64,000 bases of DNA, taken from Halostella salina (lineage in GTDB: Archaea; Halobacteriota; Halobacteria; Halobacteriales; Natronoarchaeaceae). The stretch is taken from positions 1-64,000 of the forward strand of contig NZ_RCIH01000009.1 in NCBI RefSeq assembly GCF_003675855.1. Reading direction: 5' to 3'. The notes beneath the pieces are model-generated. The model did no database searches and was not told the DNA's origin. It worked only from the letters and a program-made list of their open reading frames with translations. Position numbers and translations under genes: made by a program. This document shows positions 37,738 through 52,344 of this stretch, piece by piece (positions within the stretch are counted from its first letter, which is position 1; every line of letters begins with the position of its first letter).

Positions 37738-37842
37738 CTATTCGGAGTCGAGGTCACGAGCGTCGAGCTCGCGGGCGAGAGACTGGTCTCCCGTTCGCGT
37801 GATATCGTGTTCGTCGACGAAGCTGGCATCCTCTGGATCCAC
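37738..37842 (-). other. Short acidic frame, possible gene remnant
   Basis: GTG 37842 to TAG 37738 gives 34 residues (VDEHDITRTGDQSLARELDA near its middle) with haloarchaeal codon use, convergent with the PIN pseudogene and just after an in-frame TAA. It looks like the 3' end of a lost gene, but is too short to be sure. Confidence 0.3.
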
Positions 37843-37899
37843 TTAAATGAGTAGTTAATTTTCCAACTATTATCGCAAGAGGGGAGCCGATTTCAAAAA

Positions 37900-38781
37900 A
37901 TGGAGAGCCCTATGGGGTATGGACGTGTACCAACTGACATGGCTGGGAGCCAGGGACACACAACAGCGCTCTCGGAAATCGCTCGGAACCAGTTATCGCT
38001 GCTTGACTCACTAGCGGATGAAGACACAGATCGAATCATACCGCTGAATTTGCTTGATACACAGCACTACTGCGAGCAGAAAGCACAGTTTCAACGGGCA
38101 CAGGGGTGGGACGATGAATCACTCCCAAAGCGCCTCGTTCGGGGTCGGGAACAACATAGCGAGCTAGCTGAAACCACGGCATCAAGCGATGATGAGTATA
38201 CGCTTGAGGATGTTTGGGATGATATACAATCAGGAGACGTCTCGCTCCTCTATCCCCCACTCGCGTACGAACTGGTGAACATGGTTTTGGTGGGTTGCCC
38301 GATGTTTCTTCGGTTCGTGAACAGCCAGCCATCGCAATTAACCCTCGTTCGAGGAGTGACGAAAGAAGCGTACACAGAGCGACTCTTCCCGAACGAAGAG
38401 TTCTTGCTCTGGTGTCACGGCAACCTGCTAGATCGAATTGGATTTGATGTCTCGGATCTTTCGGTTCGCTATCTCAAATACCCGCAGTCTAAGTTCGACG
38501 CCGTCGAGGTAAGCAGGGCACAGCTCTTGCTTGCCGCTGAGGACGGTGATGAGATCTCCGTGAAGCTTAACGAGGGGTCCACGCTTCACCCACATATCCG
38601 GCGGCATCCCATTTCGTACGAACGGGATAGTAAACGAGGCAAGCAGCTCAGAGCATTCGCAGCATTCTGGCGAGACGGTGGCGATAACCCAGACGGTGCG
38701 AATCACTGGAAGCAGTGTGTCAGCTGTCGCTTCCGTTCACAGTGTGACCTTGCACTCGCAAAAGGAGAGAAGCGTAGGTGA
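37900..38781 (+). CDS. Cas4/RecB-like protein, catalytic residues apparently lost
   Basis: 293 residues. The cysteine layout matches Cas4-type Fe-S nucleases: one Cys in LLDTQHYCEQKAQF (Cys58) and a C-terminal CVSCRFRSQC cluster. The segment that in active relatives reads GxPD...RF, then ExK, is here VGCPMFLRFVNSQPSQLTLV, with Met at the Asp position and no ExK, so the nuclease looks inactive (my alignment by eye). It is the first gene of an operon with a DEDD exonuclease and a DUF1998 helicase. Start ATG 37900, after TTAATTTT at 37855. Confidence 0.7.
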   Translation: MESPMGYGRVPTDMAGSQGHTTALSEIARNQLSLLDSLADEDTDRIIPLNLLDTQHYCEQKAQFQRAQGWDDESLPKRLVRGREQHSELAETTASSDDEYTLEDVWDDIQSGDVSLLYPPLAYELVNMVLVGCPMFLRFVNSQPSQLTLVRGVTKEAYTERLFPNEEFLLWCHGNLLDRIGFDVSDLSVRYLKYPQSKFDAVEVSRAQLLLAAEDGDEISVKLNEGSTLHPHIRRHPISYERDSKRGKQLRAFAAFWRDGGDNPDGANHWKQCVSCRFRSQCDLALAKGEKRR

Positions 38782-38851
38782 CTCCGATGAAGAGATCAAT
38801 CACAATTCTCCGAGGAACACACAGCGCAGAGCAGCCACGGAAGTCTCGTTC

Positions 38852-40282
38852 ATGATCGGGCTCACAGTCTTACCTGAACTGACGATTGATCGGTGCGAGA
38901 GGAATCAACTCCGGGACGTCATCCATTATTTCGATTCAGAGGTAGTGTTTACTCCGAATCAAGTTCACCAGCGGTTCCTCACCGACACAGTTGGTGATTC
39001 CGTAGAGGTGATGACGCAACCCCTCGCAGATAGGCGAGCCACCCAGATCGCAAAGGACAGCGACACACGCTTGATCTGGGCCGCTACGCCGAGCGCTCTT
39101 GAGGAAACCATCCAGCTGACCCAAACCGGGACACCAGAGAATCGCCGAGAATGCTACATCCTCACCGACCAATTGAGTGTCTCTGTCGACCTGATCCACT
39201 TGGAAGCCCACCTCGATGGCTTGGAGGAGTATCGAACTCCCTTCATGGAACACGGTGCGCTTGACGACTTTACGCACCTCACCATCGAAGCAAATCCCGA
39301 ATATCGCGCGGAGTGGGACGGGATTGACGTTCAAGGCGTGATGCCTGGGGCAAACAAACAGCAGGGGGCGAGTGGAGCAGGCGTCGCTCATTTCGAACTC
39401 CAAGAAGACGGTATCGTTGGGGGGAAAACCCGAGAACTGGGCAAATTTGGTCTTCAGGCAGTCGATCAAATCGGGCGATCACGAGCAGAGACGCTGCGGG
39501 AGGCCGGAATTCAAACCCGTCAAGCACTCGAATCGGCCTCAGTGAATGAGGTTTCAAAGCTTTCTGGGCTTGGCCAGAAGACTGCCAGAACCGCTATCGA
39601 ATCTGCACAGGTAATCGAACAAGGAGAGGTACGGAAAGCTCCAGGAGCAAGTCTCCCCGAGAAGGAACCGGTCTTCATCGACATCGAGACGGATGGCCTC
39701 AACCCGACGATCATCTGGCTCATCGGCGTCTATGTCCGTGACCGCTATATGTCGTTCATCGAAACCGATCCGAGAAAACCGGAAGTTGCACTGGAAGCGT
39801 TCCTGTCTTGGCTCTCAGAGTTCGGAAACAATCGACCCATCGTCGCCTACAACGGCTGGAAGTTTGACTTCCCAGTAATCGAAGAACACATCGGAGAGCA
39901 CTGTCCACAGTACCTCGACTTTTGGACGAGTACGCATCGGTTCGATCTCTACGATTGGGCGGTTCGAGAGAACAATGCGGCCCTTCCAGGACTGACGAAC
40001 AAACTGGAAGACGTGGCAACAGCACTCGGATGGGACCCACTGGACACGGGATTAACGGGTGCCGAAGTTGGCCGGCTGTTCCAACGATATGCAGCAAACC
40101 CGTGTGCAGATACTGAGTTAGATTGGGAACGCCACAAGCGCTACTGTGAGGACGACGTCCGCGCACTCGCCTACATCTACGAACAGGTTGCAACAGCCAC
40201 ACACCGAATGACGGTGACCAGTAGTGGGTCGGGTTCGACGACGAACGACTCCACATCTCAAGGAACACTCAGCGATTTCTAA
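38852..40282 (+). CDS. HhH plus DEDD exonuclease (MrfB/YprB-like)
   Basis: 476 residues: about 200 N-terminal residues of unknown fold, a helix-hairpin-helix region (about 222-262, VSKLSGLGQKTARTAIESA), then a ribonuclease-H-like 3'-5' exonuclease. Exo motifs: VFIDIETDGL (Asp-Glu), VAYNGWKFDFPVI, and YCEDDVRALAYIY. The same domain is found in Bacillus MrfB (YprB), which works with the MrfA helicase in repair of mitomycin lesions. Start ATG 38852 is 70 bp after the Cas4-like stop; an upstream in-frame stretch lacks a start codon. The helicase follows three bases later. Confidence 0.85.
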   Translation: MIGLTVLPELTIDRCERNQLRDVIHYFDSEVVFTPNQVHQRFLTDTVGDSVEVMTQPLADRRATQIAKDSDTRLIWAATPSALEETIQLTQTGTPENRRECYILTDQLSVSVDLIHLEAHLDGLEEYRTPFMEHGALDDFTHLTIEANPEYRAEWDGIDVQGVMPGANKQQGASGAGVAHFELQEDGIVGGKTRELGKFGLQAVDQIGRSRAETLREAGIQTRQALESASVNEVSKLSGLGQKTARTAIESAQVIEQGEVRKAPGASLPEKEPVFIDIETDGLNPTIIWLIGVYVRDRYMSFIETDPRKPEVALEAFLSWLSEFGNNRPIVAYNGWKFDFPVIEEHIGEHCPQYLDFWTSTHRFDLYDWAVRENNAALPGLTNKLEDVATALGWDPLDTGLTGAEVGRLFQRYAANPCADTELDWERHKRYCEDDVRALAYIYEQVATATHRMTVTSSGSGSTTNDSTSQGTLSDF

Positions 40283-40285
40283 CCA

Positions 40286-42730
40286 ATGAGCGATAACAAC
40301 ACCCCAACACTCGATACGGTCCTGAATACCGAAGCGCTCGAAGAGACGTTTCCGGACTACGAAGGTCAGCTTGCCGATACGATCACCGACCCGCCGAAGG
40401 AAGCAGAAAGGGTCCCAGCTACCGAGGTGCTTCCGGATACGCTCGCAGAGAAGATCGATCACGACCTCTACAGCCATCAGGCAGCGGCGATCCAGGAGTT
40501 ACAAGCGGACAACAACGTGACAGTCTCCACATCCACGTCCTCCGGGAAGACGTGGATCTATACGCTCTACTTCTGCATTCGGAAGCTGCAGAGTCCGGAC
40601 GCCCGTGCACTGTTCCTTTACCCGACGAAGGCACTCAGCGCGGACCAAGAACGGACGATCAACGACCTTTTCGACAAGCTCGGAATCGACGCTCTCGCCG
40701 AGACATACGACGGTGATACGAAGGACGACCGGAAAAAGCTCATCAGAGACCGCGTCGACGTCGTCATTTCCAATTTTGCGGGAATCAACCAGTATCTGGA
40801 CTCCCACATGAAGTGGCGAGATGCCTTCCAGAACTGTGAGCTCGTGGCCATCGACGAGTGTCACACATATACTGGTGTTCATGGGATGCATGTCTCGTGG
40901 GTTGTTCGTCGACTCCGCCGATTACTGGAACACTATGGGTCAGCTCCCCAGCTCGTCTGTTCAACGGCCACCATTGGGAACCCACGTGAACACTCTGAAC
41001 TGTTGACAGGGGCCGACTTCGAAGTGATCGATGAGGACGGGAGCCCACACGGTCGCCGAGAGATCGCGTTCTGGGAGCCACCACTTCAAGAGACAGATGG
41101 CGCCGTCGATGGATTGGCAGAAGACGAGATCATCCCCTCGATGCGACGGAACGCCGACGATGAGGCCGCGGGGGCACTCGTCCATCTAGCGAAAAACGAC
41201 GTTCAGACGCTGATGTTCACTGACTCGCGGCAGGGCACGGAAATCGGTGTGAAGCGCGCGATGAACGCTGCTCGGAACCACCCCGGAGGCCAGTACGTCA
41301 ATATCGAGCCCTATCACGCTGGGCTTAGTAAACGGAAACGCCGTTCCGTGGAAAATCAGCTCGGCAGCAACGATCTCGATGGAGTCATCTCCACGAGTGC
41401 ACTAGAGTTGGGGATCGACATCGGGTCCATGGACGCCACAGTACTTGCGGGGTATCCCGGGACTCGGCAGTCCTTCTGGCAACGCATCGGTCGTGCGGGT
41501 CGTGGCACGACCGACTCCCTCTCCGTGTTCGTGACACAGTCCGATGCTATCGACCAGTACATCCTGAACAACCCAGAATACGTCCTCGAAGAGAACGTCG
41601 AGGATGCCGTGGTCGACCTCTCGAACAACCCAGTCTATGCCAAGCACGTTCTCTGTGCAGCATCTGAACGGCCGCTAACGCAGTCCGATGCGAAGTGGTT
41701 CGGGTCAGAGGACCGGTTGGCTCGGACCATCGATATGTGGCAAGCGGCCGGACAGATGGTGGGTGACCTAGACCGTGGTGCGCAGCACAACGGATCCGCT
41801 CGGCCCCAGAGTGACATCTCGATGTACGCCACGACTGACGAGCAATACGAGGTCCGTCAACTAGACGGCGAAATCGACATGGAACCCCTCGATAAAGAAC
41901 GGGTTTATCGGGAGTTCTACCCCGGTGCCTTAGTTCTACATGATGGTGACCAATATGAGGTTCAGGAAGTTGTAGAAGATCGAATCCGTCCGTATGTGAC
42001 CCTCGAGGAGTCACACTCACCAAACTACACCCAGGCGATCCACGATAAGCGGATCACCGACTTGGAAGTCGAACGATCCTACGAGCTCGATAACGGCTAT
42101 CAGCTCTGTGCCGGAATGGGGACAGTTCACATCAACTACAGCGCCTACAACGTGAGGAACATCCATTCCGGCGAGATGGTCAATGCCATGGTGCCTATTG
42201 ACCTAGATCCGATTTCGATTCGAACGCAGCTTATGTGGATCGCGTTCCCGAACGAGGCAGTCGATCAGGTTCTACGAGAGATTCCAGTAGAGTCCTATAT
42301 TCGGCCGACCGAGAAGTCTGAGTTCCCCTCCATGGGCGAAGAAAAGTTTACCATGGCCGGTGGGCTCCACGGAGGCGAGCACGGGATGATCAAAATGGCA
42401 CCCTTGGAGCTCCGTCTAGACAATAGCGACATGGGTGGATTGTCTACTCTTCGCCATTCCGAGGTCGATAGCCCGGTTTGGTTCATCCACGACGCTGTTG
42501 AGGGCGGTATCGGATTCTCCCACAGCATCTACGAGAACTTTGAGGCGGTTGCTCAGCGGACGCTTGAGCGGATCGATGGCTGTGACTGCGGCCGTGATAT
42601 CGGCTGTCCAGCCTGCTTGATGAGTAGTCAATGTGGAAATCAAAACGAACCGCTCCACCGACCAGCCTCTGTTGGGTTGCTCGAGAAGGCGCTGGAACAG
42701 GTAAGAAGAATTTCCAACCAATCAACCTGA
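40286..42730 (+). CDS. DEXH helicase with DUF1998/MZB domain (MrfA/YprA-like)
   Basis: 814 residues, superfamily 2 helicase. Q/I region LYSHQAAAIQELQAD and STSSGKTW (Walker A), DECH box in VAIDECHTY, SAT motif as CSATIGNP, motif VI QRIGRAGRG. The C-terminal Zn-binding module has CDCGRDIGCPACLMSSQC, the four-Cys DUF1998/MZB signature. MrfA-type enzymes translocate on DNA and unwind damage-containing duplex. With the adjacent exonuclease and Cas4-like protein this makes a three-gene DNA-processing operon that may serve repair or defence. Confidence 0.9.
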   Translation: MSDNNTPTLDTVLNTEALEETFPDYEGQLADTITDPPKEAERVPATEVLPDTLAEKIDHDLYSHQAAAIQELQADNNVTVSTSTSSGKTWIYTLYFCIRKLQSPDARALFLYPTKALSADQERTINDLFDKLGIDALAETYDGDTKDDRKKLIRDRVDVVISNFAGINQYLDSHMKWRDAFQNCELVAIDECHTYTGVHGMHVSWVVRRLRRLLEHYGSAPQLVCSTATIGNPREHSELLTGADFEVIDEDGSPHGRREIAFWEPPLQETDGAVDGLAEDEIIPSMRRNADDEAAGALVHLAKNDVQTLMFTDSRQGTEIGVKRAMNAARNHPGGQYVNIEPYHAGLSKRKRRSVENQLGSNDLDGVISTSALELGIDIGSMDATVLAGYPGTRQSFWQRIGRAGRGTTDSLSVFVTQSDAIDQYILNNPEYVLEENVEDAVVDLSNNPVYAKHVLCAASERPLTQSDAKWFGSEDRLARTIDMWQAAGQMVGDLDRGAQHNGSARPQSDISMYATTDEQYEVRQLDGEIDMEPLDKERVYREFYPGALVLHDGDQYEVQEVVEDRIRPYVTLEESHSPNYTQAIHDKRITDLEVERSYELDNGYQLCAGMGTVHINYSAYNVRNIHSGEMVNAMVPIDLDPISIRTQLMWIAFPNEAVDQVLREIPVESYIRPTEKSEFPSMGEEKFTMAGGLHGGEHGMIKMAPLELRLDNSDMGGLSTLRHSEVDSPVWFIHDAVEGGIGFSHSIYENFEAVAQRTLERIDGCDCGRDIGCPACLMSSQCGNQNEPLHRPASVGLLEKALEQVRRISNQST

Positions 42731-45644: not shown

Positions 45645-45666
45645 TGCCCAACGCTCGGAGCTACGC

Positions 45667-46800
45667 ATGAAAGTCGAAGGAGACTACACGTGCGACATCT
45701 GCGGCGAATCGTTCGAAACGAACGTCGAGATTGCTGCCCACATAGCAGGCCACAAGCGGTCAATCACACCGGACCACATCATTGAGGAGCTCAGACGCGT
45801 CGCCGAACAAAAAGGCCGAACGCCGATGCAACCCGAGGTTGAGGAAGAGACAGAGTTCACAGCTGGTGCCGTCCAATCAACGTTCGGGAGTTGGGAAGAA
45901 GGACTACACGAGGCGGGGCTTGAACCACTCGATCAATCCTACTCAGAAACGGAGGTAATCGACGACTTACAGCGCGTGGCCGAGATGCTCGGTCACTCTC
46001 CGTCAGTGTCGGAAATGAAGGCACATGGGGAAGTGTCTCCAGCTGTGGTGAAACGACGATTCGGATCGTGGAATACCGGACTGGACGCTGCAGAGCTATC
46101 GACAACGAAATCGGCCAAGGTTACACCGAAAGAAGTAATCTCAGCGATTCAGACTCTCGGAGAGGACCTTGGGCGGCCACCGACCGCTTACGAAATGGAT
46201 GAACAAGGAGCGTACGCAACGAAAGTCGCCCACCGGCGATTCGGTAGCTGGAACGCTGCACTTCAGGAGGCAGGTTTTGACCCACATACGCGACGAAATA
46301 TTCCGGATGAAGAGTTACTGACGGAGCTCACTCGGCTCTGCGATGAACTGGGGCATGTCCCCTCAACTGTGGATATGAGAGAACACGGGGAGATCACGAT
46401 CTATCCGTACATCCGACGATATGGATCATGGAAGCGGGCTGTGGAGGCAGCCGGGATGGAATATCGCGGCCATCCGAGCGGCCCAGATCACCCCACTTGG
46501 AAGGGTGGCTACGGGGACATCTCATACGGCCCAAACTGGTACAAGCAGCGCAAACGCGCCTTGGAACGGGACAGCTTCGAGTGCCAGATGCCGGGCTGTC
46601 CGATTGACCGCGAGACCCATCGCGAGCGCTGGGACCGTGACCTGAACGTCCACCACATTACGCCGCTTGGTGCATTCATCGATGGCGACGGAGTACTGGA
46701 TTATGAACGGTCAAACCGACTTGAGAACCTGATTACGCTCTGTCAGCGCCACCATACGATGTGGGAGGAGTTCGCTCCGCTCCAGCCCGATATTCGCTAA
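45667..46800 (+). CDS. C2H2 zinc-finger HNH endonuclease with four HE-associated repeats
   Basis: 377 residues. N-terminal C2H2 finger (CDICGESFETNVEIAAHIAGH is its span, residues 9-29), four tandem repeats of about 53 residues each ending in a FGSW or YGSW motif (TFGSWEEGLHEAG, RFGSWNTGLDAAE, RFGSWNAALQEAG, RYGSWKRAVEAAG), and a C-terminal HNH domain with CQMPGCPI, NVHHITPLGAF and NLITLCQRHH. The repeats are those associated with homing endonucleases and bind DNA. It probably cuts DNA at a long site; it might mobilise itself or act in the plasmid's biology. Start ATG 45667 after box C. Confidence 0.85.
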   Translation: MKVEGDYTCDICGESFETNVEIAAHIAGHKRSITPDHIIEELRRVAEQKGRTPMQPEVEEETEFTAGAVQSTFGSWEEGLHEAGLEPLDQSYSETEVIDDLQRVAEMLGHSPSVSEMKAHGEVSPAVVKRRFGSWNTGLDAAELSTTKSAKVTPKEVISAIQTLGEDLGRPPTAYEMDEQGAYATKVAHRRFGSWNAALQEAGFDPHTRRNIPDEELLTELTRLCDELGHVPSTVDMREHGEITIYPYIRRYGSWKRAVEAAGMEYRGHPSGPDHPTWKGGYGDISYGPNWYKQRKRALERDSFECQMPGCPIDRETHRERWDRDLNVHHITPLGAFIDGDGVLDYERSNRLENLITLCQRHHTMWEEFAPLQPDIR

Positions 46801-47436: not shown

Positions 47437-48984
47437 ATGACTCCTGTAGACGATTTCAAGGCTGTCGGTGAGGATGGACTTATCAGAAATAAACTGGATC
47501 GTATGCGCCAGACCGGAGAGATGCGCGTTCTTGATTTATTCGCAGGTTGCGGCGGCCTCTCACTGGGCTTCGAGACCGCTGGCTACGAAATAGTTGGCGG
47601 CATCGAGAAGAACGATTACGCCGCTTCAACGTATGCGGAGAATATCCATCGAGAAGCATCTTCAGCGGTGAAGAAATTCCATTCAAAAGCTCGAGATATC
47701 TCCGAGGTTGACCCCGAGGAGTACGTTGAGGAACATCCCAATCTGAACGAGGTCGGACGCGATGTAGACGTTCTGGTCGGCGGTCCCCCATGTCAGGCCT
47801 ACACCCGGGTGGGACGTGCAAAGCTAAGAGATGTCGCAGAGGACCCAGAGGCCTTCCTCAATGACCCGAGAAGTAACCTCTATCTACAGTATCTGGAATT
47901 CGTTCAGAAGACCAAGCCAGCGGTGATTCTGATCGAGAACGTTCCGGACATTCTGAATTATGACGGGCACAATATTGCTCGGGAAGTAGCCGAAGTACTG
48001 GATGAGCTTGGCTACTCCCCTCGATACACTTTGCTAAACGCGTCATATTATGGGGTTCCCCAGATGCGTGAACGGATGTTCCTTCTGGCCTATCATGAAG
48101 ACGTCGCCGCAGACCCCGAGTTCCCGGAGCCCACTCACTACCATGAACTACCGTCCGGGTATCAAGGGTCACGGGATGTAGCTCTTCAGGAGGTCGAGAC
48201 ACCACAGACTACTCTGGAGGACCCAACGAGGAAGAAGACGTACTTCTCTCCCATCCCTGAACCCGAAGATGATCTCCCGTCCGCTGTGACTGCCCACGAG
48301 GCAATTGGTGATTTACCCGAGATAACCCGGCACCTTCGGGGAGAACTAGAGCGAGGGGCAAGACGGTTCGATGATCTTTCACCGTACCCTGGCTCCTCTC
48401 ACTCCGATTACGCAGAGAAAATGCGAAACTGGCCGGGATTCGAGAGTTCAGATGGCGTCTGGGACCATACCATCCGAAACCTCCCTCGTGATTACCCCAT
48501 CTTCCGACGGATGAATGAGGGGGACGAATATCCCGCGGCTCACGAACATGCAATGGATCTGTTCCGCGAAAAACTCCAAGAACTGGAAGAACAGGGTGAA
48601 AGGCCTGAACCCGGGTCAGAAGAATACGAGGAGCTAAAAGACTCCATAGTTCCCCCCTACAGCACCGACAAATTCCCCAACAAATGGTGGAAAATGGAGA
48701 GGGATAATCCAGTCCGGACGCTCATGGCTCATCTTCAGAAGGACAGCTACACCCATATTCACTACGACGATGAGCAAGCCCGGACCCTCTCCGTGCGCGA
48801 AGGCGCTCGTTTACAATCCTTCCCAGATGGCTTCGAATTCGAGGGTACAATGAACCCGGCGTTTCGCCAGATTGGAAATGCCGTCCCTCCGCTACTGGCT
48901 CTCTCACTCGCAACGAAGATCTCGGAGGTGCTTCCGGTTTCCGATGACGGGAAGAGTCGACACAAAAAGGTTCATTCTGCCTGA
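47437..48984 (+). CDS. DNA (cytosine-5) methyltransferase
   Basis: 515 residues with all landmarks of C5 enzymes in order: motif I VLDLFAGCGGLSLGFETAGY, motif IV GGPPCQAYTRVG with the catalytic Cys, motif VI IENVPDIL, motif VIII PQMRERMFLL, motif IX RTLSVREGARLQSFPD, motif X QIGNAVPPLLA. The target-recognition region (about residues 230-400) is long. AT-richer than the backbone. Convergent with an McrC/McrB-like pair, so together they resemble LlaJI-type restriction-modification, in which McrBC-like subunits cut and C5 methylation protects. Confidence 0.92.
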   Translation: MTPVDDFKAVGEDGLIRNKLDRMRQTGEMRVLDLFAGCGGLSLGFETAGYEIVGGIEKNDYAASTYAENIHREASSAVKKFHSKARDISEVDPEEYVEEHPNLNEVGRDVDVLVGGPPCQAYTRVGRAKLRDVAEDPEAFLNDPRSNLYLQYLEFVQKTKPAVILIENVPDILNYDGHNIAREVAEVLDELGYSPRYTLLNASYYGVPQMRERMFLLAYHEDVAADPEFPEPTHYHELPSGYQGSRDVALQEVETPQTTLEDPTRKKTYFSPIPEPEDDLPSAVTAHEAIGDLPEITRHLRGELERGARRFDDLSPYPGSSHSDYAEKMRNWPGFESSDGVWDHTIRNLPRDYPIFRRMNEGDEYPAAHEHAMDLFREKLQELEEQGERPEPGSEEYEELKDSIVPPYSTDKFPNKWWKMERDNPVRTLMAHLQKDSYTHIHYDDEQARTLSVREGARLQSFPDGFEFEGTMNPAFRQIGNAVPPLLALSLATKISEVLPVSDDGKSRHKKVHSA

Positions 48985-49069: not shown

Positions 49070-50731
49070 TCAGCTCCCGTAGAAGGAAATACCGGCATCG
49101 TCACAGAGCTTCTCGATGCTATCTCGAATCTCTTCCAAACTCATTCCTGGCTTGAGCGGTGCGGCACCAATCGAGAACTCATTCCTGTAGCTGTCGTCGA
49201 ATAGCCGGTCAGGTAACGACGCCGTTCTCCAGTCTGGAACAGGTTCTGCCTCATGTGGAGACAGGAGAAAGCTGCCGGAAACCAACCTGACGATACTCCC
49301 ATCTTCCTTCTCCCGAACTATAGCATCCCGGTACGTGTGCACCGAGGAGAGAGCTTCATTCAGTCCAGCATCAACACGGTATTTCGCATCCAGAATGAGC
49401 ATTTCTTGCGGCTCATCATCACCTATAATAGCAATATCTGGTCTCATCAGTCGTGAAATTGAACCCACCCTATCGTCTTCCCTCCAGTATTCCCCGAAGC
49501 TCTTCTGATAGGCCAGTATGAAATCATCCCCATACTCCAGCGTCACACTATTTGTCGCGAGAACTAGTTCGCCAGGGCCAGTCTCCTTGAACAGGTCCGA
49601 AACGTCTGGGTCATCAACTCGGGTGTCTTCGGCAAGGGCTCTTGCGATACGAAGGAAACACCACAACTCGTAGAGGTCGTAAGTTCTCGAAATAGGTACC
49701 TCAAGGGCGTCTCCCGTTACACGGGACAGACCCTGTTCTATTTCTTGATACAGGTGAAAGAACTCCCGATAATGGGGTTTCCGGCGGTATATAGAACTGA
49801 TAGTCGGAGTATCAGAAATATCGGCGACCGATTCAAATAGCGAAAGTTCAAGCAGCTGACTGAGCCGGTCAGACATTCTCCGGCATCGTGCCGCCCAGCG
49901 AGACCTTCGACGACCGAGTTCCGAGTCATCAACAGCAGCCTCAAGACAATCTGAAACTGCCAGCAACCAGTCTTTCCAGGTGACAAGAGCAGCTTTAATC
50001 TCACGATGCTCCTGAATGTCGAGGCCCGTCTCAACCGATTGCTTCCGAATGGTTGCAGGATAGATACCGTCGAGACTCTCTGGAAGTGAACCGGGTTCCC
50101 GTGTTTCCTCTAGAACCGTTCCCGACCGCAGTGACTTGACCAATTCTCTCCCTGTAACCTTTCTCGCTTCATGATGGCTGACCTCCTGTTCCCGGCTTTT
50201 CAGTACACGAACCGGATTTTCATCGATTTTGTTGACAACCTCTACGATACGCGGGAGTCGTGACTGAATATATTCGAGACGGGCGATTGGGGGAAGTTTA
50301 TGATGGAAGCCCTGTCCGATTCCAGCCCGATACGGCCCAATAGAAAACAGGGCGGTCGTATCTTCGAGAATATCCTCAATCATCCGGTTGTAGCGATCAC
50401 GGGCGAGTTTGGCAACTTGCGGATCGATTTCTATTTCCGCCCTGGCACGTTTTCCGGTAGCGAATCCGATGTCGATTCGAACGAGCCCGCTATAGAAACC
50501 AGGAGACCAAGCCCATCGGGCAGTTCTGTCATCGGGACTCCGCAGAGCTTCAAGCGGTGTTCCATCAATGGAGAGTGTGGTTTCATCAGGGGATTCTACA
50601 TCAACCAGTTCGAACTCGTACTCCTCGTTCTCCTCAATAATCCCGGAGGGTATATCGCAGGTGTCGGGCCATATCCGCCACCATTCTCCCGATGACTCCC
50701 GTTTACGGACACGAAGCTCGGTCATGTTCAC
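49070..50731 (-). CDS. McrC-like restriction subunit (DUF2357, PD-(D/E)XK)
   Basis: 553 residues. A long N-terminal DUF2357-type region is followed by a nuclease core near residue 460: PDIAIIGDDEPQEMLILDAKY (Asp, then DAK in place of ExK) and a helix VHTYRDAIV. McrC proteins are the endonuclease partner that stimulates and is recruited by McrB GTPase. The start overlaps the stop of the McrB-like gene by four bases (50728-50731). The adjacent methyltransferase gene is convergent, 86 bp away. Confidence 0.82.
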   Translation of the reverse strand: MNMTELRVRKRESSGEWWRIWPDTCDIPSGIIEENEEYEFELVDVESPDETTLSIDGTPLEALRSPDDRTARWAWSPGFYSGLVRIDIGFATGKRARAEIEIDPQVAKLARDRYNRMIEDILEDTTALFSIGPYRAGIGQGFHHKLPPIARLEYIQSRLPRIVEVVNKIDENPVRVLKSREQEVSHHEARKVTGRELVKSLRSGTVLEETREPGSLPESLDGIYPATIRKQSVETGLDIQEHREIKAALVTWKDWLLAVSDCLEAAVDDSELGRRRSRWAARCRRMSDRLSQLLELSLFESVADISDTPTISSIYRRKPHYREFFHLYQEIEQGLSRVTGDALEVPISRTYDLYELWCFLRIARALAEDTRVDDPDVSDLFKETGPGELVLATNSVTLEYGDDFILAYQKSFGEYWREDDRVGSISRLMRPDIAIIGDDEPQEMLILDAKYRVDAGLNEALSSVHTYRDAIVREKEDGSIVRLVSGSFLLSPHEAEPVPDWRTASLPDRLFDDSYRNEFSIGAAPLKPGMSLEEIRDSIEKLCDDAGISFYGS

Positions 50732-52344
50732 CGCATGCTCTGGAAAGAGCCCATCTCATCCAATTCATCAAGGAGTCTGGAAACGATCTCCTTGCATTCC
50801 GGCATGTTCTCAGTTTCAAACTTGTCTTGGAGATCAACGAGGAGTTGCCGCTCACTCTGTGACCCATTCAGCTTTACAAGTATCTTCTGTGCGACTGCGT
50901 GGTCGAGATTTTCGCGGTCGCTCCCGAGGTCCTCATCCTGTGCAAATCCTACGTATCTCACAATCTCCTCGGTAACTCTGTAACCAAACCCGAGACCGTG
51001 AGGCTCCAGGAGATTCCAGATGTCGACGAGGTGGTCCTCAGATGCCTCGATTGCTTCACTGAGCGATGGGTTGTCGTCTTCGAGGTGATCGAGAAAGCCC
51101 TCTATGTCCACATCGGACATATCGACCGTCACGGCCCGGTCCAGAACCTTATCGCTGAATGGGTGAGTGGTTTCATCTATATTCACTGTTCCAGTAATAT
51201 ACAGGTTGTCAGGGACGGTTAGCTCTGGAGGGATATCTTCTCCTGTGCTTCCAGTCACCGGGTCCGAATTCTCGTGCAGGGTGATTGGTTCCCCTGTCTC
51301 AATTGCGCTTAAGACATCAGAGAAATAGTACTCTACTCGCGCCAAATTCATCTCGTCGATAAGAACGAAAACAGGAGATTCCGGATGCTCGTTGGCAGTG
51401 AGTACAGCTTGGAGGAAGGGAGGGACTATGTACTCTTCCGAAAGCGGATCATAGTACCCAGTCAGACCACTTGGGTCGGTCCAGTCAGGCCGAACAGGAC
51501 AGATGAAAAAGAGAGGGTCATCTTCGTCTTCATTATTAATTCCGTGGACTGCACGGGCATACATCATTGCTAGGCTCGTTTTCCCGGTCCCCGAAATTCC
51601 AGTGAGAATCACGAAGTGTTTCCCGTCCAAGTGGTTGAGACCAACGTGATACTGTCTTAGTTGCTCGTCGAAAAAGTAGCCACCCTGGTTCTCGATACCG
51701 GTTTTTATTTCATCCAGACCGCGCTCCTGGGGGGACTGGCGCATACCATCGGGTAACGGTTCAGGCTGCCAGACCTGTATCTCCTCCAAGCTACTCCCGC
51801 CAACCATTCCCTTGAGATAGCTAATCCATTGCCTTGCGACCAGACCCTGGCGGGTGGGTGACGTCGGGGGATAGACCGTCACAACCAGTTTGTCGATATT
51901 GACGGCCGGTTCTAGTTCAGGACGATGTGGATTGAGACTGTCGAGATATCCGCTGTTGTGCAAGTAGACCTGCCCATCCTCTGCAAGATAGGGTCGAACA
52001 TTGTTGTTCCGGTCGCTGTGTGGAACATCAGTACCATCGCTCCCATCCTCGCCAAACTCTTCCATTCGGTCTAGCCGGTCACAGAATGTGGAAAAGTCGT
52101 CATGGAAGAACGCCGCAAACCACAGTTCCTTCGAGGGATGGAATGTATATTGTCCGATAAGAACAATCCCGTCTTTCGAGGGATCCAGACTCTCAAGATT
52201 TACCGTACCGAGCTGGAAACCCCCTTCGAGCGGGCGAGGAGCGTTCGAAACCCCGAACATCTTACTGAGGGCCGTGTTATCTGTAAAGTCAGAATCTCTC
52301 TTGATCCGCTCTACAAAGTCCTCTTTGCGGTCGCCAACTGTCAT
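50728..52344 (-). CDS. McrB-like AAA+ restriction subunit
   Basis: 538 residues. N-terminal region of about 230 residues presumably recognises DNA; the AAA+ motor has Walker A GISGTGKTSLAMMYARAV (about residue 235-252), Walker B PVFVLIDEMNLARVEYYF, and the McrB-type NVDETTH motif seen as GTVNIDETTHPFSDKVLDRA. McrB hydrolyses GTP to drive translocation and cleavage with McrC. With the C5 methyltransferase it makes a LlaJI-like system. TTAAACGGAGG at about 52360 precedes the start. Confidence 0.85.
   Translation of the reverse strand: MTVGDRKEDFVERIKRDSDFTDNTALSKMFGVSNAPRPLEGGFQLGTVNLESLDPSKDGIVLIGQYTFHPSKELWFAAFFHDDFSTFCDRLDRMEEFGEDGSDGTDVPHSDRNNNVRPYLAEDGQVYLHNSGYLDSLNPHRPELEPAVNIDKLVVTVYPPTSPTRQGLVARQWISYLKGMVGGSSLEEIQVWQPEPLPDGMRQSPQERGLDEIKTGIENQGGYFFDEQLRQYHVGLNHLDGKHFVILTGISGTGKTSLAMMYARAVHGINNEDEDDPLFFICPVRPDWTDPSGLTGYYDPLSEEYIVPPFLQAVLTANEHPESPVFVLIDEMNLARVEYYFSDVLSAIETGEPITLHENSDPVTGSTGEDIPPELTVPDNLYITGTVNIDETTHPFSDKVLDRAVTVDMSDVDIEGFLDHLEDDNPSLSEAIEASEDHLVDIWNLLEPHGLGFGYRVTEEIVRYVGFAQDEDLGSDRENLDHAVAQKILVKLNGSQSERQLLVDLQDKFETENMPECKEIVSRLLDELDEMGSFQSMR

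Follow-up and report, generated by a model that had tools for sequence, protein, structure and literature searches.

The operon described here lies on a 193-kb contig (C9) of the 3.74-Mb genome of the haloarchaeon Halostella salina, in a window of 64,000 nucleotides. As a sequence-only reading of this DNA had proposed, three genes form a single operon: a cas4-like gene is followed by an mrfB-like gene and an mrfA-like gene, all on the forward strand, with intergenic gaps of 70 bp and then 3 bp, and the order of the triple is conserved among its relatives. The cas4-like gene (37939..38781) encodes a 280-aa Fe-S protein from which the nuclease residues have been lost, the mrfB-like gene (38852..40282) a predicted HHH and DEDDy 3'-5' exonuclease of 476 aa, and the mrfA-like gene (40286..42730) an 814-aa predicted SF2 helicase of the MrfA/YprA type with a DUF1998/MZB zinc domain. 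A CTTAAA box at 37840..37850 (+), about 90-100 bp before the cas4-like gene, is conserved in nine aligned upstream regions and may be a haloarchaeal TATA-like promoter element. The nine aligned leaders also share a CCCTATGGGGTA element (CCCTATGGG-like; 37908..37919, +), which is followed by an in-frame stop in three of them. Because homologous leaders hold these stops, translation of the cas4-like gene is predicted to begin at the conserved ATG 37939, and a longer form beginning at ATG 37900 is unlikely. The surroundings also agree with that reading, which had placed the operon in an accessory region carrying defence genes: a Dcm methylase gene (47437-48984, +) and an McrC-like/McrB-like pair (49070-52344, -), recognized with Pfam, PADLOC and NCBIfam profiles, are found 5-10 kb downstream and are considered here as context only. 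Between the triad and the Dcm gene, at 45664-46800 of the window, lies a gene for an HNH endonuclease that has four repeats of the homing-endonuclease type and also a weak C2H2 zinc finger.

The sequence-only reading had further matched the exonuclease and the helicase to Bacillus MrfB and MrfA, and this match holds in full for the helicase and in part for the exonuclease. In the MrfA-like protein, Pfam recognizes DEAD, Helicase_C, HRQ1-type winged-helix and MZB(DUF1998) domains, and residues 36-780 align colinearly and without large inserts with Bacillus subtilis MrfA/YprA (PDB 6znp, E=8.5e-99). In each of the 20 homologues compared, Walker A, the DExH motif, motifs III and VI and the zinc cysteines are preserved. 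The MrfB-like protein contains HHH_5 and RNase_H_2 domains, and its DEDD residues, together with a tyrosine as the fifth catalytic residue (YxxxD), are invariant in 40 homologues, so that by motif it is a predicted DEDDy exonuclease; no TPR domain was found in it by Pfam. Bacillus MrfB is a DEDDh exonuclease with His258 and a C-terminal TPR domain (PMC11194089). Since tyrosine replaces histidine and a TPR domain was not found, the likeness to MrfB is one of family and operon partner and not of detail.

For the Cas4-like protein, single-sequence profile searches gave weak matches (PADLOC Cas4, E=0.002; NCBIfam cas4, E=0.0076) and no match in Pfam. Profile-profile comparison with HHalign against Cas4/RecB-type relatives, represented by a profile of three haloarchaeal proteins matching PDDEXK_1, Exo5 and Cas4, gave a probability of 98.4% and E=4.4e-15 over 242 columns, and in the reverse direction the profile of these three active relatives recovered the triad proteins with E-values down to 1e-16. 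These comparisons firmly support the homology of the triad protein to the Cas4/RecB-type PD-(D/E)XK Fe-S nucleases. In the alignment, four Fe-S cysteines, arranged as an N-terminal YC and a CxxCx5C motif (codons at 38071, 38716, 38725 and 38743, +), are invariant, as is a histidine. In contrast, the motifs GxPD, (E/D)RK and QxIQxW of the active relatives read G(C/R)P(M/T), VRG and (N/S)ExFxLW in the triad proteins. The catalytic D, (D/E)xK and Q are thus replaced (D to M/T, E/D to V and K to G) in nine of nine aligned members and in one further locus (L045). Pairwise dN/dS values for the cas4-like gene are 0.07-0.17 (about 0.1) where measurable, the closest pair excepted, and this purifying selection indicates that the gene is maintained; together with the invariant cysteines it speaks against a decaying pseudogene, a reading that was rejected. 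The Fe-S protein that had been noticed in front of the pair is accordingly there, with the correction that it is probably a maintained but catalytically dead protein and not a nuclease. A part in a CRISPR adaptation module was rejected, as no cas gene occurs among the neighbouring genes examined. An AlphaFold2 model built from six sequences reached a pLDDT of 37 and was discarded. The cas4-like gene had no match in the phages and viral contigs searched, and scanning of viral contigs with active Cas4-like proteins as queries found no further relatives. Two other loci carry related genes. One (L028 9588-10439) encodes a relative of 34% identity without the cysteines and without the catalytic residues, with no mrfAB nearby and an Mrr-type gene about 2 kb off. 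The other (L027 9579-10334) encodes an active-looking Cas4-like protein; a Dcm methylase gene and a pair of ORC-CDC6-like and HD-CE genes are its neighbours, and this group (L027 7725-14384) is likely a separate conflict system.

About ten genomes, belonging to four or more families, carry the triad in the same gene order, and most of the copies reside on plasmids or small contigs. Close Cas4-like relatives (61-77% identity) were found in 7 of 392 Halobacteria genomes, Halostella salina included; further copies are located on plasmids of Natronorubrum bangense and Haloarcula pelagica (the latter with 58% identity) and on a contig of Halorussus ruber. Four haloarchaeal plasmid records have any match to the triad, which is absent from most haloarchaeal plasmids. 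In every intact copy, mrfB and mrfA stand directly behind the cas4-like gene. Among the other copies, mrfB is split into two open frames in Natronobeatus (L020 10521-12187, and L034 on a Natronobeatus ordinarius plasmid), with the cas4-like and helicase genes intact, and the cas4-like gene of Natrinema sp. DC36 is reduced to a 5' remnant. An mrfB-like gene is present in 155 of the 392 genomes; at the 31 mrfB loci examined outside the triads, the triad cas4-like gene was in no case found upstream. In the MrfB tree, nine triads form one clade (support 100/99) that lies within the pairs without cas4 and has the Halobacterium salinarum pHS3 pair and that of genome G032 as its sister. Within the clade, Halostella salina groups with Natrinema and Haloferax with Natronorubrum, a branching against host taxonomy. 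From this single, host-incongruent clade, the cas4-like gene would most simply have been gained once, after which the triple moved horizontally. The operon is therefore not universally chromosomal and tied to repair genes only, the pattern that would have spoken against the earlier reading: it resides on plasmids and islands of few genomes, and no repair genes were found beside the triads examined. Halostella salina itself carries a second, native mrfB-mrfA pair without cas4 on contig C6, which groups with the pairs of its own genus and has a GC3 of 0.94-0.95, against 0.57-0.66 for the triad. At one locus (L024 4447-5757), mrfA is immediately followed on the same strand by a gene whose 436-aa product belongs to no known family; such a fourth gene was not seen in the other triads.

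Various defence genes are found around the other copies. The Natrinema triad adjoins GmrSD, the Haloferax triad adjoins Argonaute and an Eco57I-type methylase, and the Natronorubrum triad adjoins an Mrr-type nuclease. On the Haloarcula pelagica plasmid, a CBASS operon of SMODS, E1-E2-JAB and SAVED-TIR genes (L035 1929-6642) is separated from the triad by an Orc1/Cdc6 gene. In addition, several copies adjoin Orc1/Cdc6, ParA-like, integrase and ImmA/IrrE/ArdC-like genes, and the neighbours vary from copy to copy. When independent loci were counted by hand, a defence gene was nearby in five of eight triads and in four to five of 20 pairs without cas4 (p 0.04-0.08), the triads having been scanned more fully than the controls. 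A survey of co-occurrence and defence association, as called for in the sequence-only reading, thus finds the three genes kept together in all intact copies and a patchy, mobile distribution, whereas the enrichment of defence genes over mrfAB pairs without cas4 is no more than suggestive. Upstream of the Natronobeatus triad, a protein of about 1630 aa with a sacsin domain is encoded at L034 1534-6435.

Several known systems resemble the triad in part. With the mitomycin repair pair MrfA-MrfB (YprA-YprB) of B. subtilis it shares a full-length homologous helicase and a gene order in which the DEDD exonuclease immediately precedes the helicase; it differs in the added Cas4-like subunit, in the DEDDy and HHH exonuclease in which no TPR domain was found, and in its mobile and patchy occurrence. 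A 2017 survey described Cas4-like proteins (pfam12705) beside COG1205/YprA helicases with large inserts in bacteria and mesophilic archaea and predicted a role in defence (PMC5704561). A cas4-like gene next to a YprA/DUF1998 helicase gene is common to both cases, but the helicases of the survey possess large metal-binding inserts that are missing from the triad helicase, and in the triad MrfB is present and the active site of the Cas4-like protein is lost. In a 2025 survey of YprA helicases, those linked to MrfB were assigned to a repair branch that is distinct from the defence branch, and Cas4 was not mentioned (PMC12458937). The triad differs from the cases in both surveys, while the link between Cas4 and YprA as such was already known. 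DISARM, Druantia, ARMADA and BRIGADE likewise contain a YprA/DUF1998 helicase in accessory, defence-rich regions. In contrast to theirs, the 814-aa triad helicase lacks BrxA-like or zinc-module inserts and the split DUF1998 of DISARM, and it is accompanied by MrfB; no methyltransferase or BrxHII partner gene of the DISARM, Druantia, ARMADA or BRIGADE type was found within the operon. An assignment of the helicase to ARMADA, BRIGADE or Druantia was rejected because it has neither the inserts nor the partner genes of these systems. Another architecture to be compared is COG2251/TIGR03491 (the TM0106 family of RecB-like nucleases), in which a Cas4/RecB-type domain is joined to HHH and PF13482 exonuclease domains. 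COG2251 proteins combine a DUF83 (Cas4) domain with the PF13482 exonuclease, often together with AAA domains (PMC3985635). The MrfB-like protein matches this profile over the HHH-exonuclease part only and below the curated cut-off, and, unlike the single-protein fusion, the triad has split genes, a Cas4 domain that is probably dead and a helicase of the SF2 DUF1998 type. On a Haloglomus plasmid (L041 1800-10812), a 1538-aa fusion of a RecB/Cas4-type Fe-S nuclease and an SF1 helicase is encoded directly before a distant mrfB-mrfA pair. The nuclease of this fusion appears intact and active by sequence, and the locus is flanked by an HsdR_N gene and, downstream, by a Piwi/Argonaute gene.

Based on these comparisons, a possible mode of action can be proposed for the triad. 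The operon would be a mobile derivative of MrfA-MrfB to which a third subunit, descended from a Cas4/RecB-type Fe-S nuclease, was added in a single event; after the loss of catalysis, this subunit would have been kept as a DNA-binding structural protein stabilised by its Fe-S cluster. In the three-protein complex envisaged here, the MrfA-like helicase may unwind DNA in the 3'-5' direction. The dead Cas4-like pseudo-nuclease could hold or guide the separated strand, by analogy with the nuclease-fold scaffold domains of RecBCD/AddAB-like machines, and the MrfB-like exonuclease could then degrade the released 3' strand. The COG2251 fusion and the Haloglomus nuclease-helicase fusion beside mrfAB are precedents that support such a mechanism. 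As a unit, the triad, carried by plasmids and islands, would clear foreign or aberrant DNA in the manner of an accessory defence module, a reading with roughly even chances. More tentative is the narrower proposal that haloarchaea have here a new anti-virus system, whose dead Fe-S Cas4 pseudo-nuclease recruits or gates a helicase and exonuclease of the repair type and so turns a repair machine into an immune effector.

The most serious alternative, itself rather unlikely in our estimation, is a plasmid-borne repair operon that excises mitomycin-type or other lesions like Bacillus MrfAB, with the Fe-S subunit improving the handling of lesions or ends, and that spreads because it is useful in high-UV brines. 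The full-length homology of the helicase to B. subtilis MrfA and the assignment of YprA helicases linked to MrfB to the repair branch (PMC12458937) are consistent with it, and many haloarchaeal plasmids have mrfAB pairs without defence neighbours. Furthermore, at E<=1e-20 the triad mrfB is the only one in five of the seven triad genomes surveyed, where the operon could thus serve as the repair pair; this, like the repair-branch architecture of the helicase, counts against defence. On the other hand, Halostella salina retains its separate native mrfAB pair, the spread is patchy, several neighbourhoods are rich in defence genes, and repair genes are missing beside the triads examined. Defence is favoured over plasmid-borne repair, at about even odds, on account of the patchy, mobile and host-incongruent occurrence of the triple, its frequent location in defence-rich places and the native pair that Halostella salina already possesses. 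It is improbable that the triad serves its carrier plasmid or island, in replication restart, recombination, plasmid competition or counter-defence, instead of the host: the Orc1/Cdc6, ParA-like, integrase and ImmA/IrrE/ArdC-like genes beside several copies fit such a service, whereas the absence of the triad from most haloarchaeal plasmids and from the phages and viral contigs searched, and the differing neighbours of the copies, argue against it. PD-(D/E)XK enzymes can relocate their catalytic residues, and charged residues, K142 and E190 among them, remain invariant in the Cas4-like protein; nevertheless, a still active nuclease with relocated residues, making the triad two nucleases and a helicase, is quite improbable, as all canonical motifs were lost together while the Fe-S cysteines stayed invariant.

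As a mobile version of MrfAB joined by a Cas4 fold put to a new use, the triad sits on the border between the repair and defence branches of the YprA helicases, and it could reveal the route by which a machine for repair turns into one for defence. Its Cas4-like subunit would, moreover, exemplify a Cas4-family protein that has been retained because of its Fe-S fold and not because it cuts. As two triad copies occur in the genetically tractable Haloferax, the question is directly testable. The native mrfB-mrfA pair of the genus Halostella may be linked to defence as well: in two of the four genus members viewed (L004 4371-10749, on contig C6, and L087), a GmrSD-type restriction gene precedes it on the same strand at a distance of 53-60 bp.
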